A DNA stretch of 64,000 bases from Halobacterium wangiae (GTDB lineage Archaea > Halobacteriota > Halobacteria > Halobacteriales > Halobacteriaceae). How positions within the stretch are numbered: position 1 is the first letter of the stretch; every line of letters begins with the position of its first letter. Both the position numbers and the translations under genes were made by a program. Positions 29,090 to 34,766 of this stretch are shown here, one piece after another. Location: positions 1,984,001 through 2,048,000 of the forward strand of contig NZ_CP089588.1 in NCBI RefSeq assembly GCF_021249345.1. Direction: 5' to 3'. The notes under the pieces were generated by a model. That model was given only the letters and a program-made list of their open reading frames with translations, did no database searches and was not told where the DNA came from.

Positions 29090-29788
29090 GTGCGAACCGT
29101 CACCGACCCCGACCCGGAGACCGCCGCGGCGTTCGTCGCCGACGCCAGCAGCGACGGCCTCGCAGTCTCGCTGGTCGGGCGCTGTGCGACGACGTTCGAG
29201 GGGCGTGCGGAGCGGGCGCTACCGGCCGGCGTCAGGCAACTGCTGTACAAGCCCGACGACACGGTGCTGGTCCACGGCGCGTCGGGCCGCGACCCCGTCG
29301 CGTGGTCGTCGGGCGGCGGCGTGACCGCGAGCGTCGTCGACGACGCCCTCGAACTCCACTGCGGCGAGGCCGACGGCGCGGACACGCTGACAGTGCGCTT
29401 CCAGTCCGTCCAGCACGCCACGGCGTTCGCCCCGACGAGCGAAGCGGGCGACGTCTCCGGCACGGAGACCGACCTCAAGGAGCGCGTGCTGTCGAACCCG
29501 GACCTCGTCGAGGCGGGGTTCCGCCCGCTCGCCACGGAGCGCGAGACGCCCGCGGGCCCCGTCGACGTCTACGGCCGCGACGAGAACGGCGCGGTGGTCG
29601 CCGTCGAACTGAAGGCGCGTCGGGCCGGCCCGTCGGCGGCCTCCCAGCTGGAACGGTACGTGACCGCGCTCCGCCGGGACCTCCACGCCGACGCCGAAGT
29701 ACGAGGAATCCTGGTCGCGCCCGAAATCACGGAGAAGACCCGCCGCCTGCTCGCAGAGAGCGGGCTCGACTTCTCGCCCGTCGAGTAG
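29090..29788 (+). CDS. nucS: Endonuclease NucS (EndoMS), mismatch-specific
   Basis: A dimeric nuclease that makes double-strand cuts at mismatches or cuts branched DNA, acting with PCNA. It has 232 residues from GTG 29090 (VRTVTDPDPETAAAF); the in-frame region upstream lacks coding character. The C-terminal nuclease core has the full motif set: D159 in PVDVYGRD, E173 and K175 in VAVELKARR, Q186 in ASQLERYV. The N-terminal domain holds LLYKPDDTVLVHG and RFQSVQHATAF. Its stop codon directly abuts the stop of mutS on the other strand (29788/29789), joining the two mismatch systems. Confidence 0.95.
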   Translation: MRTVTDPDPETAAAFVADASSDGLAVSLVGRCATTFEGRAERALPAGVRQLLYKPDDTVLVHGASGRDPVAWSSGGGVTASVVDDALELHCGEADGADTLTVRFQSVQHATAFAPTSEAGDVSGTETDLKERVLSNPDLVEAGFRPLATERETPAGPVDVYGRDENGAVVAVELKARRAGPSAASQLERYVTALRRDLHADAEVRGILVAPEITEKTRRLLAESGLDFSPVE

Positions 29789-32380
29789 TCACTCCAGGTC
29801 GCGCCGGAGTTCGTTGAGCACGTTCAGCGCCTCGATCGGCGTCAGTTCCGCGACGTTCACGTCCCGGAGTTTCGCCGCCAGGTCGGCGTCCACGCCGGTG
29901 CTCTCGTCCGCTTTCTCGTCCGCGCTCCCGTCGCGTGTCCGTTCGCCAGTGTCCGCCGCGACGACGGACTCGTCAAGGAACTCGCGGGCGCGGTCCACCA
30001 CCTCGTCGGGGACGCCCGCGGTCCGCGCGACTTCGACGCCGTAGGAGGCGGTGGCCGCGCCATCCCGGACTTCGTGCTGGAACGTGACCCCTTCGTCCGT
30101 GCGCGTCGCGCCGAAGTGGAGGTTGACCGCATTCGGCAAGCGCTCGGCGTCAGCGGTGAGTTCGTGGTGGTGGGTGGCGAACAGCGTGGTCGCGCCGAGT
30201 TCGTCGTGGACGTACTCCGTGACGGCGCGCGCGATAGCGAGACCGTCGGTGGTCGACGTCCCCCGCCCGACCTCGTCGAGCAGGACGAGGGAGTCCTCGG
30301 TGGCCGCGCGCAGGATGGCGGCGAGTTCGGTCATCTCCACCATGAACGTCGAGCGGCCGCCCGCGATGTCGTCGCTCGCGCCGACACGCGTGAAGATGCG
30401 GTCGACGACCCGCAGTCGGGCGTTCGCGGCGGGGACGAAGCTCCCGGCCTGCGCGAGCAGGACGACGAGTGCGACCTGGCGCATGTACGTCGACTTCCCG
30501 CTCATGTTCGGCCCGGTGACGACGGCGACCCGCTCGTCGGGTGTGAGGCGGGTGTCGTTCGGGACGAAGCCCGACTCCGTGCGCTCGACGACCGGGTGGC
30601 GCCCGCCCTCGACGCGGATGCCGTCGCCGCCCATCGTGGGCCGTGCGTAGTCGTGGGCCGCGGCGACGGACGCGAACGAGGCGAGCGCGTCCAGCGCGGC
30701 GAGTGCCGCCGCCACCGCCTGCATCCGCTCGGCTTCGCGGGCGACCCGGTCGCGGACTTCGGTGAACAGTTCGTACTCGAGGTCCTGGGCGCGCTGCTCG
30801 GCGCGCACGATGTCGTCCTCGCGTTCCTTCAGTTCGGGCGTGACGTACCGCTCGGCGTTCTTCAGCGTCTGGCGGCGCTGGTAGTTGTCGGGTACTGCCT
30901 CGCTGTTCGCGTGGGTCACCTCGATGTAGTAGCCGTGGACGGCGTTGTGCCCGACCTTCAGCGAGTCGACGCCGGTGCGCTCGCGCTCCGCGGCTTCGAG
31001 GTCGTCGATCCACTGTTTGCCCGAGCGCTCGGTCTCCCGGAGGTCGTCGAGTGTCTCGTCGTAGCCGTCCCGGACGACGCCGCCCTCGGTGAGTTCCTGT
31101 GGTGGGTCCGGGACGATGGCGCGGTCGAGCAGGTTCCGGATCTCCGGCAGGTCGTCGAGTTCCGCGCGCAACTCCCGGAGTTTCTCACAGTCCGCGTCGG
31201 CGAGCAGCGAGCGCACCTCCGGCACCACGTCGAGGGTCGCCTTCAGCGAGCGCAGGTCCCGTGCGTTCGCGCGGCCTCTGGAGACCCGCGAGACGAGGCG
31301 CTCGATGTCGTAGACGTCCCGGAGGTGCTCGTGGAGTTCCTCGCGGGTCATCGGGTCGGCGACGAGTTCACCGACCGCGTCGTGGCGCGCCTCGATGGCC
31401 TCCCGGTCGGTGAGCGGGCGGCGCAGCCAGTCGGTCAGTGCGCGCCGCCCGAGCGCGCACGCCGTCTCGTCGAGCACGTCCACGAGCGCGGTGCCCGCCG
31501 CGCCGTGGACGCTGCGCTGCTCGAACACCTCCAGGCTGCGCAGCGCCACGGCGTCCATCTGGAGGTACTCCCGCGGGTCGTACCGCGTGAGGTGGTTGAG
31601 GTAGTCGAGCCGCTGGTGGCCCTCCCCACCCCGTGTGTACTCGGCGTACGCGAGCAGCGCGCCGCAGGCCCGGACTTCCGCGTCGACCGCGAGCGCGTCC
31701 GCGCTCCCGAAGTACGACGCCACGCGCTCGGTCGCCACCTCGAGGTCGAACACCCCGTCGTCGTACTCCGCGACGAACGTGTCGCCGTCGAAGCGGCCCG
31801 GGTCGACGTCGGGTCCAGCGACGAGTTCCGCTGGCGCGAACCGCCCGAGTTCGTCCCTGATCCTGGCCGCCTCGGGGAGACTCGTCGCGTAGAAGTCGCC
31901 CGTGGAGACGTCGAGCAGCGCGAGTCCGTATCGGCCGTCGTCGTCGGTGGCCAGCGCCGCGACGAAGTTGTTGTCGTCGCCCGCGAGCAGTTCGTCCTCC
32001 GTGAGTGTCCCCGGGGTCACGATGCGCGTGACGGCGCGCTCGACGACGCCCGACACTTCGTCGGGGTCCTCCACCTGGTCGGCGACCGCGACGCGGTAGC
32101 CCGCGTCCAGCAGGTCGTCGATGTACGGCTCGGCGTTGTCGATGGGGACGCCCGCCATCGGGTAGCGGCCCGTCGAATCCTCGCGGGCGGTCAGCGTGAT
32201 CTCGCAGATGCGGGCGGCCGCCTCGGCGGCGTCGCAGAACAGTTCGTAGAAGTCGCCCACCTGGAACAGCACGAGGGCGTCCTCGTAGCGCCGCGTGAGC
32301 TCGAAGTACTGGCTCATCATCGGCGTGAGGTCGGCCTCGCTCTCGGCCATCTGGTCGGGTGGCCCCAGCGCCGCGTCCAT
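29789..32380 (-). CDS. mutS: DNA mismatch repair protein MutS
   Basis: 863-residue MutS1 from ATG 32380. Mismatch-contact F44-Y-E46 is in [10 protein letters not shown]. Connector and lever/clamp domains follow. The ATPase has Walker [14 protein letters not shown] (about 622-635) and Walker [15 protein letters not shown] (about 699-712), then [11 protein letters not shown]. An acidic, low-complexity stretch ([16 protein letters not shown]) precedes the C-terminal helix pair. Length and domain order are those of bacterial-type MutS, which many haloarchaea carry with MutL. No mutL is present in this window. Confidence 0.97.
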
Positions 32381-32509
32381 GCAGGAGGGCAACGGGGTGG
32401 CTACTGTTATGCTCGTCGGTTGATTCGGAGTCGAGGGCCGCCGACGGTGTCCAGCGGAGTCGTCTCTCACCGGGGATTTTTGCGTTCGCAGACGCTACGT
32501 CACCCACGA

Positions 32510-32956
32510 ATGGCGGGCGTCGTCGAGAGCGTCGAACGTCGCGCCGAGAACGTCTTCCGGCTGCTCGGGCTCGACCGAATCGCCGCCCCGGCGCGGGCGG
32601 TCCGGGCGGTCGAGTTCGGCGTCGTCGGTACCACCGGCGCCGTCGTGAACGCCGTCGTCTTCGTCCTCGCGCCGGTGGCGTACCTCCTGGCCGGCGCGCT
32701 GGCGTTCGTGAGCGGCACCGCCTGGACGTTCGTCCTCAACTGGACGGTCACGTACGACCGGCCGAGCCACGACCCCCGCCGCGCGCTCGCCCGGTACGCG
32801 TCGGTGTACGGCCTCGGGTTCGTCGTCTACTCGGTCGCGCTCGCGGTCGGCGTCGAGGGTCTCCACCTGGCCGCGCTCTCCGCGAACGTCGGGGCCATCG
32901 CCGTCGCCGGCACCGTGAACTTCGCCGGCAGCGAACTGTTCGCGCTCGGCGAGTGA
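32510..32956 (+). CDS. GtrA family membrane protein
   Basis: 148 residues from ATG 32510, with four predicted membrane helices and the family pattern VEFGVVGTTGAVVNAVVFV, then FVLNWTVTYD and an arginine cluster (RRALARYASVYG). GtrA proteins are thought to help flip or support transfer of lipid-linked sugars for cell-envelope polysaccharide or protein glycosylation. It is divergent from mutS and 73 bp upstream of a MutS5-like gene; no functional link is evident. Confidence 0.92.
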   Translation: MAGVVESVERRAENVFRLLGLDRIAAPARAVRAVEFGVVGTTGAVVNAVVFVLAPVAYLLAGALAFVSGTAWTFVLNWTVTYDRPSHDPRRALARYASVYGLGFVVYSVALAVGVEGLHLAALSANVGAIAVAGTVNFAGSELFALGE

Positions 32957-33029
32957 CCTCGCCGGCCACCGCCCGGCCCGGTAGCGCGGACCGCGGCACC
33001 CTTTACCCCCGGGTGTCACAGTCCGAGGT

Positions 33030-34766
33030 ATGCGACTGGAGGAGTACTGGGGGGTCGGCCCGAAGACGGCCGACCGCCTCGAAACGGAACTCGGGGTTCC
33101 CGACGCTATCGACGCCATCGAGAGCGCGGACGTGCGGGCGCTCGTCGAGGCCGGCATCTCGCGGGGCCGCGCCACCCGCATCCTGCGGCGCGCGAACGGC
33201 GGGGAGGGGATGGACAAACTCGCCACCGAGGACGCCCGCGCCGTCTACAAGGAACTCGTCTCGCTGGCCGCGGAGTACGCGGTCACCCGTCACGCTGGCG
33301 ACCGCATCCGCGTGCTCACGCCGCTCGTCGACCGTGAGGCGATGCGCGAGCGACTCGACAGCGTGGAGGCCGCTCTGGAGACGTGGCGTGGCCTCGACGG
33401 GGAGACGCGCCGGGCCGTCCTCGACGTGTTCGAATCGCACGACGGCGACAGCCGACGGGCGGCCGTCGAGACCGCACTCGCGCTCGACGACGTCGGCGTC
33501 TCCGGGGGCGTGTTCGCGTCCGTCGTGGACCTCGACAGGGACCGCCTGGAGGCGGCCGCCGCGGCGCTCCGCCACCTCACCGACGACGGGGTCGCGGCGG
33601 GCGCGGACGCCAAACTCGACCGTCTCCGCGAGCGCGCGGACGCGCTCGACAGCCTCGAACGCGACACGTTCGACGTCCTCGAGGCCGTGCGCTCGGAGGG
33701 CGTCGAGGGCACCGACGAGTTCCGCGAGGCGTTCGTCCAGTACGTCGCCACGGAGGCCGACGTCGAACCGCGGCAGGTCCGGAACGCGATGGTCGCGGAC
33801 GCCGCCGACGCGCCGGACTTCGTCAGCACGACCCTCCGGGAACTCTCCGGGACCGTCCGCGACCGCGTCGACGAGCGCGAGGCGGAGGTGGCCGCGGACC
33901 TCCGTGGCTCCATCTCGGGCGCTCGCGAGGACGTGGACGCCGCCGTCGACGCGGTCAGCGACCTCGCTTTCCACCTCTCCCTGGCGCGGTTCGCGGACGC
34001 CCACGACCTGGTGCGCCCCGAGTTCGTCGACCACGACGCGCTCGCGGTCCAGACCGCCCGCAACCTCACGCTCGCCGCGGAGGACGGGGACGTCCAGCCG
34101 GTGACCTACGCGGTCGGCGACCACGACCTCACGGACGTGCCGTCGGGCGACCGGGTCACCGTCCTCACCGGGGCGAACTCCGGCGGGAAGACGACGCTGC
34201 TGGAGACGCTCTGCCAGGTCGCGCTGCTCGCCGCGATGGGGCTCCCGGTGCCCGCCGAGCGCGCGACGGTCGGGCCGGTGGACTCGGTCGTCTTCCACCG
34301 CCGCCACGCGTCGTTCAACGCGGGCGTCCTGGAGGCGACGCTGAACTCCGTCGTGCCGCCGCTGGCGACCGGCGAGCGCACTCTGATGCTGGTCGACGAG
34401 TTCGAGGCGATCACCGAACCCGGGAGCGCCGCCGACCTGCTCCACGGCCTCGTCACGCTGACCGTCGACGAGGACGCACTCGGCGTGTTCGTCACGCACC
34501 TCGCGGACGACCTGGAACCGCTGCCGGACGTCGCGCGCACGGACGGCATCTTCGCGGAGGGGCTGAGCCCGAACCTCGAACTGCTCGTCGACTACCAGCC
34601 CCGCTTCGACACCGTCGGGAAGTCGACGCCGGAGTTCATCGTCTCCCGCCTCGTCGCGGACGCCGCCGACCGCTCGGAGCGCGCCGGCTACGAGACGCTC
34701 GCGCGCGCCGTCGGCGAGGAGGCCGTCCAGCGCACCCTCGCGGACGCCAAGTGGACCGAGAGCTGA
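33030..34766 (+). CDS. MutS5/MutS2-like ATPase with N-terminal helix-hairpin-helix
   Basis: 578-residue DNA-dependent ATPase of the MutS superfamily lacking the MutS1 mismatch-recognition and connector domains. An HhH-type module covers residues 1-55 (EYWGVGPKTADRLETELGVP; EAGISRGRATRILRR). Helical core and clamp follow, then the ATPase: Walker A GANSGGKT (381-388), Walker B LMLVDEF (D456, E457) and ITEPGSAAD. The C-terminal Smr nuclease domain of bacterial MutS2 is absent. Haloarchaeal relatives are often named MutS5. Recombination or stalled-ribosome/branched-DNA roles are possible; mismatch repair is unlikely without the FxE motif. Confidence 0.93.
   Translation: MRLEEYWGVGPKTADRLETELGVPDAIDAIESADVRALVEAGISRGRATRILRRANGGEGMDKLATEDARAVYKELVSLAAEYAVTRHAGDRIRVLTPLVDREAMRERLDSVEAALETWRGLDGETRRAVLDVFESHDGDSRRAAVETALALDDVGVSGGVFASVVDLDRDRLEAAAAALRHLTDDGVAAGADAKLDRLRERADALDSLERDTFDVLEAVRSEGVEGTDEFREAFVQYVATEADVEPRQVRNAMVADAADAPDFVSTTLRELSGTVRDRVDEREAEVAADLRGSISGAREDVDAAVDAVSDLAFHLSLARFADAHDLVRPEFVDHDALAVQTARNLTLAAEDGDVQPVTYAVGDHDLTDVPSGDRVTVLTGANSGGKTTLLETLCQVALLAAMGLPVPAERATVGPVDSVVFHRRHASFNAGVLEATLNSVVPPLATGERTLMLVDEFEAITEPGSAADLLHGLVTLTVDEDALGVFVTHLADDLEPLPDVARTDGIFAEGLSPNLELLVDYQPRFDTVGKSTPEFIVSRLVADAADRSERAGYETLARAVGEEAVQRTLADAKWTES

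Follow-up and report, generated by a model that had tools for sequence, protein, structure and literature searches.

The literature presents NucS (EndoMS) and MutS–MutL as two unrelated, alternative ways of repairing mismatches, and their interplay in haloarchaea having both is said to remain to be elucidated (accessible sections of PMC5290159 and PMC7776575). Available parts of two further reports describe how NucS works: the enzyme is activated through binding of its C-terminal tail to PCNA or the beta clamp (PMC8228993), and in a simulation of EndoMS flipped bases are held by Tyr41, Asn76 and Trp77 (PMC6829318). The protein studied here, NucS2, has the two domains, the catalytic Asp/Glu/Lys and the fold of T. 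kodakarensis EndoMS, P. abyssi NucS and actinobacterial NucS, but lacks the clamp-binding tail, is linked to the gene mutS1a and, in Halobacterium, has changed pocket residues. MutS1a likewise has all the MutS domains known from archaeal mutS–mutL operons and is an outlying relative of the mutL-paired MutS1. Unlike MutS1–MutL genomes, NucS2-type genomes have no mutL 3′ of mutS1a and carry a convergent nucS2 there instead.

A counterpart can be found in H. salinarum: in one record (L099), nucS2 and mutS1a converge and overlap by 29 nt, and the genes VNG_0171G (nucS) and VNG_0172G (mutS) are very probably the same pair as that described below. In its accessible part, PMC9997560 gives Hbt. salinarum two nucS genes, lists VNG_0171G and VNG_0172G and puts these two in separate pathways, their pairing going unmentioned. 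The open-access literature searched, in the portions available, yielded no description of a nucS–mutS pairing.

A tail-less NucS gene converges on mutS1a

The window, the whole 64,000-nt stretch of Halobacterium wangiae DNA that was analysed, belongs to a genome assembled as a 3.11-Mb single contig; its relevant features are collected in Table 1. nucS2 starts with a GTG codon, inside a longer open reading frame from 28697 in which the match to the NucS model begins only at residue 132. The TAG of nucS2 fills 29786–29788 and the complement of the mutS1a TGA begins at 29789, so that the adjacent stops reported in the preliminary description are exact. mutS1a may start at ATG 32350 (853 aa) or at GTG 32470 (893 aa, the frame staying open), and the same description's placing of a third MutS-superfamily gene within 650 bp of mutS depends on this choice: it is right from the GTG (559 bp) and wrong from the ATG (679 bp). 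The frame of this MutS5-like gene passes the cut-off for MutS_V; its matches to HHH_5 and MutS_III are sub-threshold. A promoter and terminator scan of the locus gave no match, with models that are of bacterial type and ill-suited to archaea.

Table 1. Positions of the features of the nucS2–mutS1a locus, numbered from the first nucleotide of the window
Feature	Positions	Strand	Basis
nucS2 (NucS/EndoMS paralog without C-terminal clamp-binding tail), 232 aa	29090..29788	+	NucS_N, NucS_C, NCBIfam NucS, PDB 5gke/2vld
nucS2 codons Ala71-Trp72, aligned with EndoMS Asn76-Trp77 (base pocket); Asn lost	29300..29305	+	alignment
Stretch with nucS2 catalytic codons Asp159, Glu173, Lys175	29564..29614	+	alignment, residue invariance
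Abutting stops, nucS2 TAG (+) and mutS1a TGA (complement)	29786..29791		sequence
mutS1a, 853 aa, MutS domains I-V, F-x-E mismatch motif, Walker A	29789..32350	-	domain search and alignment
MutS5-like ATPase gene, N-terminal HHH; neighbour mainly in Halobacterium	33030..34766	+	domain search

Genome searches place the pair among its paralogs. PF01939 finds two NucS genes, nucS2 and a 250-aa NucS1 at 916 kb that bears a clamp-type tail, as in canonical NucS. Four MutS-family genes match PF00488: mutS1a and the MutS5-like gene, both in the window, a long MutS (mutS1b, 1,967 kb) and an HHH–MutS_V gene (1,402 kb). PF01119 finds a single MutL, at 1,961 kb, near mutS1b and about 50 kb from mutS1a; there is no mutL beside mutS1a, the 3′ side of which is occupied by nucS2. 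This inventory identifies the window pair as a second NucS and a MutS1 not near mutL, and not, as first proposed, as the non-canonical and canonical systems side by side.

Convergent linkage is conserved and spacing is not

Among the best 80 of 259 confirmed NucS2 loci (named, with flanks of up to 10 kb), mutS1a lies downstream of nucS2 in 73 and is convergent with it in every one of these; the available stretch holds no mutS1a in the other 7, two of which have less than 6 kb downstream. The arrangement is thus not unique to this genome, a point that the preliminary description had left to be checked. The two genes overlap by 138 nt at one extreme and are 6.7 kb apart at the other: the distance is at most 50 nt or an overlap in 22 of the 73 named pairs, 51–500 nt in 13 and above 500 nt in 38, and the genes that fill these longest gaps vary among lineages. 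Exact abutment (a gap of 0) occurs in 7 of 12 Halobacterium pairs. Because gaps vary so widely, the conserved feature is convergent linkage and not the abutting stops; exact abutment and transcript overlap, each considered as the conserved feature, were rejected on the gap distribution.

Since the pair recurs across the order, its linkage is not due to chance. In a survey of neighbours over 43 genus labels (several of which stand for one MAG each), the cluster of MutS proteins, with some mutS1b copies among them, was found in 36 labels, followed by ABC ATPases on mixed strands in 17 and the next family in 12. Of the three-gene cluster first described, the NucS–MutS part is the conserved one. 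The MutS5-like gene lies near the pair in 11 of 12 Halobacterium loci and near few pairs beyond that genus (L102, L166 and a partial match at the edge of L054), and we rejected it as a member of the conserved unit.

The gaps themselves contain no conserved third gene, the commonest insert family being present in 14 of the 96 gaps over 150 nt (some genomes being counted twice). We also considered gaps of 1–2.5 kb as a possible mutL slot and found no mutL there. A PCNA-like sliding-clamp gene stands between nucS2 and mutS1a at L182:7204–8001 (+), where its product matches PF00705 and PF02747 above cut-off, and at L125:13508–14305 (+, Halorussus); its cluster comprises 6 loci.

nucS2 occupies the position of mutL 3′ of mutS1a

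A second search, over 253 order-level genomes, was centred on mutS1a (told apart from mutS1b by identity), so that its loci were not chosen by NucS. It gave 120 loci, from 115 new genomes among the matches listed and 5 earlier ones. The sample is thin in low-scoring genomes, mostly those of family f5, and shares genomes with the NucS2-centred one. Within about 8 kb 3′ of mutS1a, 73 of these 120 loci (among the matches listed) have nucS2 only, 31 mutL only, 1 both and 15 neither. The nucS2 is convergent in 70 of the 73, the remaining 3 being co-directional at 3.6–7.1 kb, and the mutL is co-directional in all 31, with gaps of −19 to 389 nt. The sole locus with both comes from Halomicrococcus, where mutL is upstream of nucS2 on the same strand and both face mutS1a (L168:6983–9283 (+), L198). 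All 15 genomes with neither have a NucS match elsewhere at E 1e-27 or better, assigned by HMM score, and none of the 14 of these sequences examined has a clamp tail.

The first 59 genomes gave a similar arrangement: the convergent pair lies within 6 kb in 32 of 37 NucS2-type genomes (the pair at L052, which has two MutS genes, being assigned by hand), is about 9 kb apart in one (G015) and is unlinked in G047 and in three f5 genomes (G029, G045 and G056). The linked pair is present in 10 of 17 family codes. In f5, 19 of 21 mutL-type genomes also carry an unlinked NucS, of NucS2 type by HMM score, with no tail among the 16 sequences examined; NucS2 can therefore exist beside a mutS1a–mutL pair. 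Two genera, g70 (of f4) and g12 (of f6), have a mutL-type mutS1a, which separates them from other members of their families. None of three g70 genomes has a NucS2-level match, and 3 of the 4 g12 genomes with mutS1a have no NucS match, the fourth (G092) having one in a 184-aa frame.

We then related these classes by a FastTree phylogeny of mutS1a, rooted on mutS1b, with 141 rows, of which 21 were chosen by us from the first set and the others are the 120 loci. All 110 rows with nucS2 or with neither gene form one clade with support of 100, albeit with long-branch warnings, and the mutL-type rows form a basal grade outside it. The simplest history, as read from these sequences, would be one replacement of the 3′ mutL by a convergent nucS2. 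With a single switch on the tree, the loci cannot be counted as many independent cases of mutual exclusion between mutL and nucS2.

The number of MutL copies follows the arrangement in the 63 genomes searched, with one MutL in 54 of 54 genomes without a mutS1a–mutL pair and two in 9 of 9 with it. Among the mutL-type genomes of the 59-genome set, six have two MutL and three (G034, G036 and G043) have one, which adjoins mutS1a, and no mutS1b was found in these three. Most NucS2-type genomes retain one MutL. In two genomes given as 99% complete (G013 and G019), mutS1a, nucS2 and nucS1 are present and neither MutL nor mutS1b was detected, the TIGR00585 match being weak, over about 50 positions and far below cut-off.

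NucS2 also follows MutS1a in its occurrence. Among the 59 genomes, 37 of the 43 that have MutS1a also have NucS2, compared with 0 of the 16 that lack MutS1a (of these 16, 9 are less than 90% complete and one, G006, has an ambiguous MutS fragment). Counted per genus, 17 have both, 5 MutS1a only, 0 NucS2 only and 9 neither (Fisher p 1e-4, uncorrected for kinship). A further 23 genomes, picked mostly for having no or a weak match in the mutS1a search, comprise 13 with both, 2 with MutS1a only, 5 with neither and 3 with NucS2-like genes only, so that the rule that NucS2 never occurs without MutS1a, true in the 59 genomes, is broken by these 3. The three genomes (G078, G085 and G098) belong to g12 and carry up to three NucS2-like copies each, MutS1a being undetected; two g12 NucS2-like sequences branch near the base of NucS2 in the NucS tree.

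NucS2 retains its catalytic residues and MutS1a its mismatch motif

Window NucS2 matches PF21003 (NucS_N), PF01939 (NucS_C) and the NCBIfam NucS model above cut-off and, by sequence and by predicted fold, matches solved EndoMS/NucS structures (PDB 5gke and 2vld) over its full length; the prediction, for a single chain, has a mean pLDDT of 89.7 and a pTM of 0.52. The catalytic Asp, Glu and Lys are present in it; of 194 distinct tail-less NucS, 193 keep them. The protein ends before the position of the C-terminal clamp-binding tail. A loose tail pattern of our own making, on which the NucS1 and NucS2 classes in our residue, tree and identity comparisons rest, recognized 23 of 245 NucS proteins (with some genomes represented twice) and no mutS1a-linked one among those 245. 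In a NucS tree rooted on the T. kodakarensis and P. abyssi proteins, 12 tail-bearing rows group on one side (SH-aLRT 86, with long-branch warnings). We rejected the idea that an absent tail signals pairing with MutS, the unlinked f5 NucS2 and the examined g12 NucS2-like copies being tail-less too; loss of the tail predates the linkage to mutS1a.

The base pocket differs between Halobacterium and other genera. In window NucS2, Tyr41 is replaced by Phe, Asn76 by Ala and Arg98 by Glu, with Trp77 kept, and Asn76 is retained in 180 of 194 distinct NucS2, the pocket thus being intact in most. Mean identity to EndoMS in the N-domain is 23% for Halobacterium NucS2 versus 41% for other NucS2 (11 versus 183 proteins), compared with 43% versus 47% in the catalytic domain. 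A dN/dS of 0.08–0.34 in nine Halobacterium pairs, which are not independent of one another, indicates that nucS2 is under constraint there by purifying selection. The Halobacterium changes would fit a nuclease that relies on MutS to locate mismatches.

In MutS1a, the Glu of the F-x-E motif is kept in 92 of 95 nucS2-linked rows (2 gaps and 1 Lys) and in 9 of 15 unlinked rows, with Lys in the other 6; in the window protein, the motif, domains I–V and Walker A are all present. In the ATPase domain of MutS1a, 7 sites are conserved in mutL-type rows and lost in NucS2-type ones, and 1 shows the reverse; in domain II the numbers are 3 and 8. Given one ancestry and unequal sampling, we did not count these class-specific residues as evidence.

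Possible roles of the MutS1a–NucS2 pair

The presence of NucS2 in the place of MutL in many haloarchaeal families suggests, at the level of sequence, that it may have taken over the job of MutL. We give a probability of about 0.45 to a mismatch-processing unit of MutS1a and NucS2, with NucS2 having taken the place of a dedicated MutL. MutS1a would sense mismatches or small loops; its ATP-bound clamp state would, we infer, recruit or activate NucS2; and NucS2, its own sliding-clamp tail gone, would then cut the DNA, filling the place of the dedicated mutL found 3′ of mutS1a in more basal lineages. Convergent linkage, near-exclusion of mutL and nucS2, the genomes in which MutL was undetected, the absent tail, the intact catalytic residues and, in Halobacterium, the eroded base pocket support such a unit. 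More tentatively, the pair might be a MutL-independent hybrid, with MutS licensing a tail-less NucS-fold nuclease, in Halobacterium partly pocket-less, as a MutS-guided nuclease.

Against the MutS1a–NucS2 unit stand the single switch, the unlinked mutS1a loci (15 of 120 among the matches listed), the f5 genomes in which NucS2 coexists with mutS1a–mutL and the Lys variants of the motif. So do the one MutL retained in most NucS2-type genomes, which MutS1a could share, the three genomes with a mutS1a–mutL pair and yet one MutL, and the three with NucS2-like genes and MutS1a undetected. Finally, in Hbt. salinarum NRC-1, deletion of mutS1A, of mutS1A and mutS1B together or of mutL gave no mutator phenotype, according to the accessible part of PMC2816208. 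NucS1 could mask such a phenotype, and the second NucS of Hbt. salinarum is a reason to revisit the silent mutS deletions.

A unit of MutS1a and NucS2 gives a concrete hypothesis: of the two MutS1 proteins, one has evolved in association with a NucS paralog located where its MutL would be expected. The activity that it predicts is open to direct assay, and the genomes that carry the pair and in which MutL was undetected are natural test organisms. If the hybrid reading is true, two pathways described as unrelated alternatives would be fused into one.

Several of the opposing observations fit two independent systems, in which NucS2 alone is a mismatch endonuclease, MutS1a shares MutL with MutS1b and linkage is the relic of one rearrangement. 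The single switch on the mutS1a tree, the retained MutL, the persistence of unlinked copies and the f5 coexistence all favour this reading, as does the base pocket, intact in most NucS2. Against it are a linkage that survives insertions of several kb, the lack of any comparably conserved neighbour, the co-occurrence of NucS2 and MutS1a, and the two genomes (G013 and G019) in which no MutL was detected to be shared, and we consider it rather unlikely.

The pair might instead act in recombination, MutS1a finding mismatches in heteroduplex DNA and NucS2 cutting it, thereby rejecting or converting divergent DNA in polyploid cells. The silent mutS deletions of Hbt. salinarum speak for this reading, and in H. 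volcanii the deletion of nucS or mutS1b causes gene-conversion defects (available part of PMC11276520). However, both H. volcanii mutS1 genes are beside mutL (available part of PMC7776575), which puts H. volcanii NucS outside the arrangement described here; deletion of the other mutS1 gave no gene-conversion defect, and nucS was reported not to be expressed under the conditions analysed (PMC11276520, same part). A role of this kind seems to us distinctly improbable.

Least plausible is that tail-to-tail overlap ties nucS2 and mutS1a expression by antisense transcripts or transcriptional collision: the missing spacer in the window, the exact abutment of most Halobacterium pairs, the 22 of 73 named pairs within 50 nt or overlapping and the convergence of pairs with few exceptions speak for it, but lineage-specific genes fill more than 500 nt in 38 of those 73 pairs and 15 of the 120 mutS1a loci (among the matches listed) are unlinked. 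The data favour a swap of partners, NucS2 for MutL, over antisense regulation.

Other NucS-related genes

NucS1, with its clamp-type tail (G000:C1:916400–916711; L002 and L087), adjoins an RNase HII gene (rnhB) at 916 kb, the identity of which is supported by a domain test, and RnhB lies no more than 6 kb from NucS1 in 19 loci (L077–L093, L095 and L096) among 20 surveyed. Low-score PF01939 matches (for example G001:C1:2796051–2796230) fall in frames of about 350–390 aa, cover only part of the NucS catalytic domain at E 1e-4 to 1e-6 and probably represent another nuclease family.
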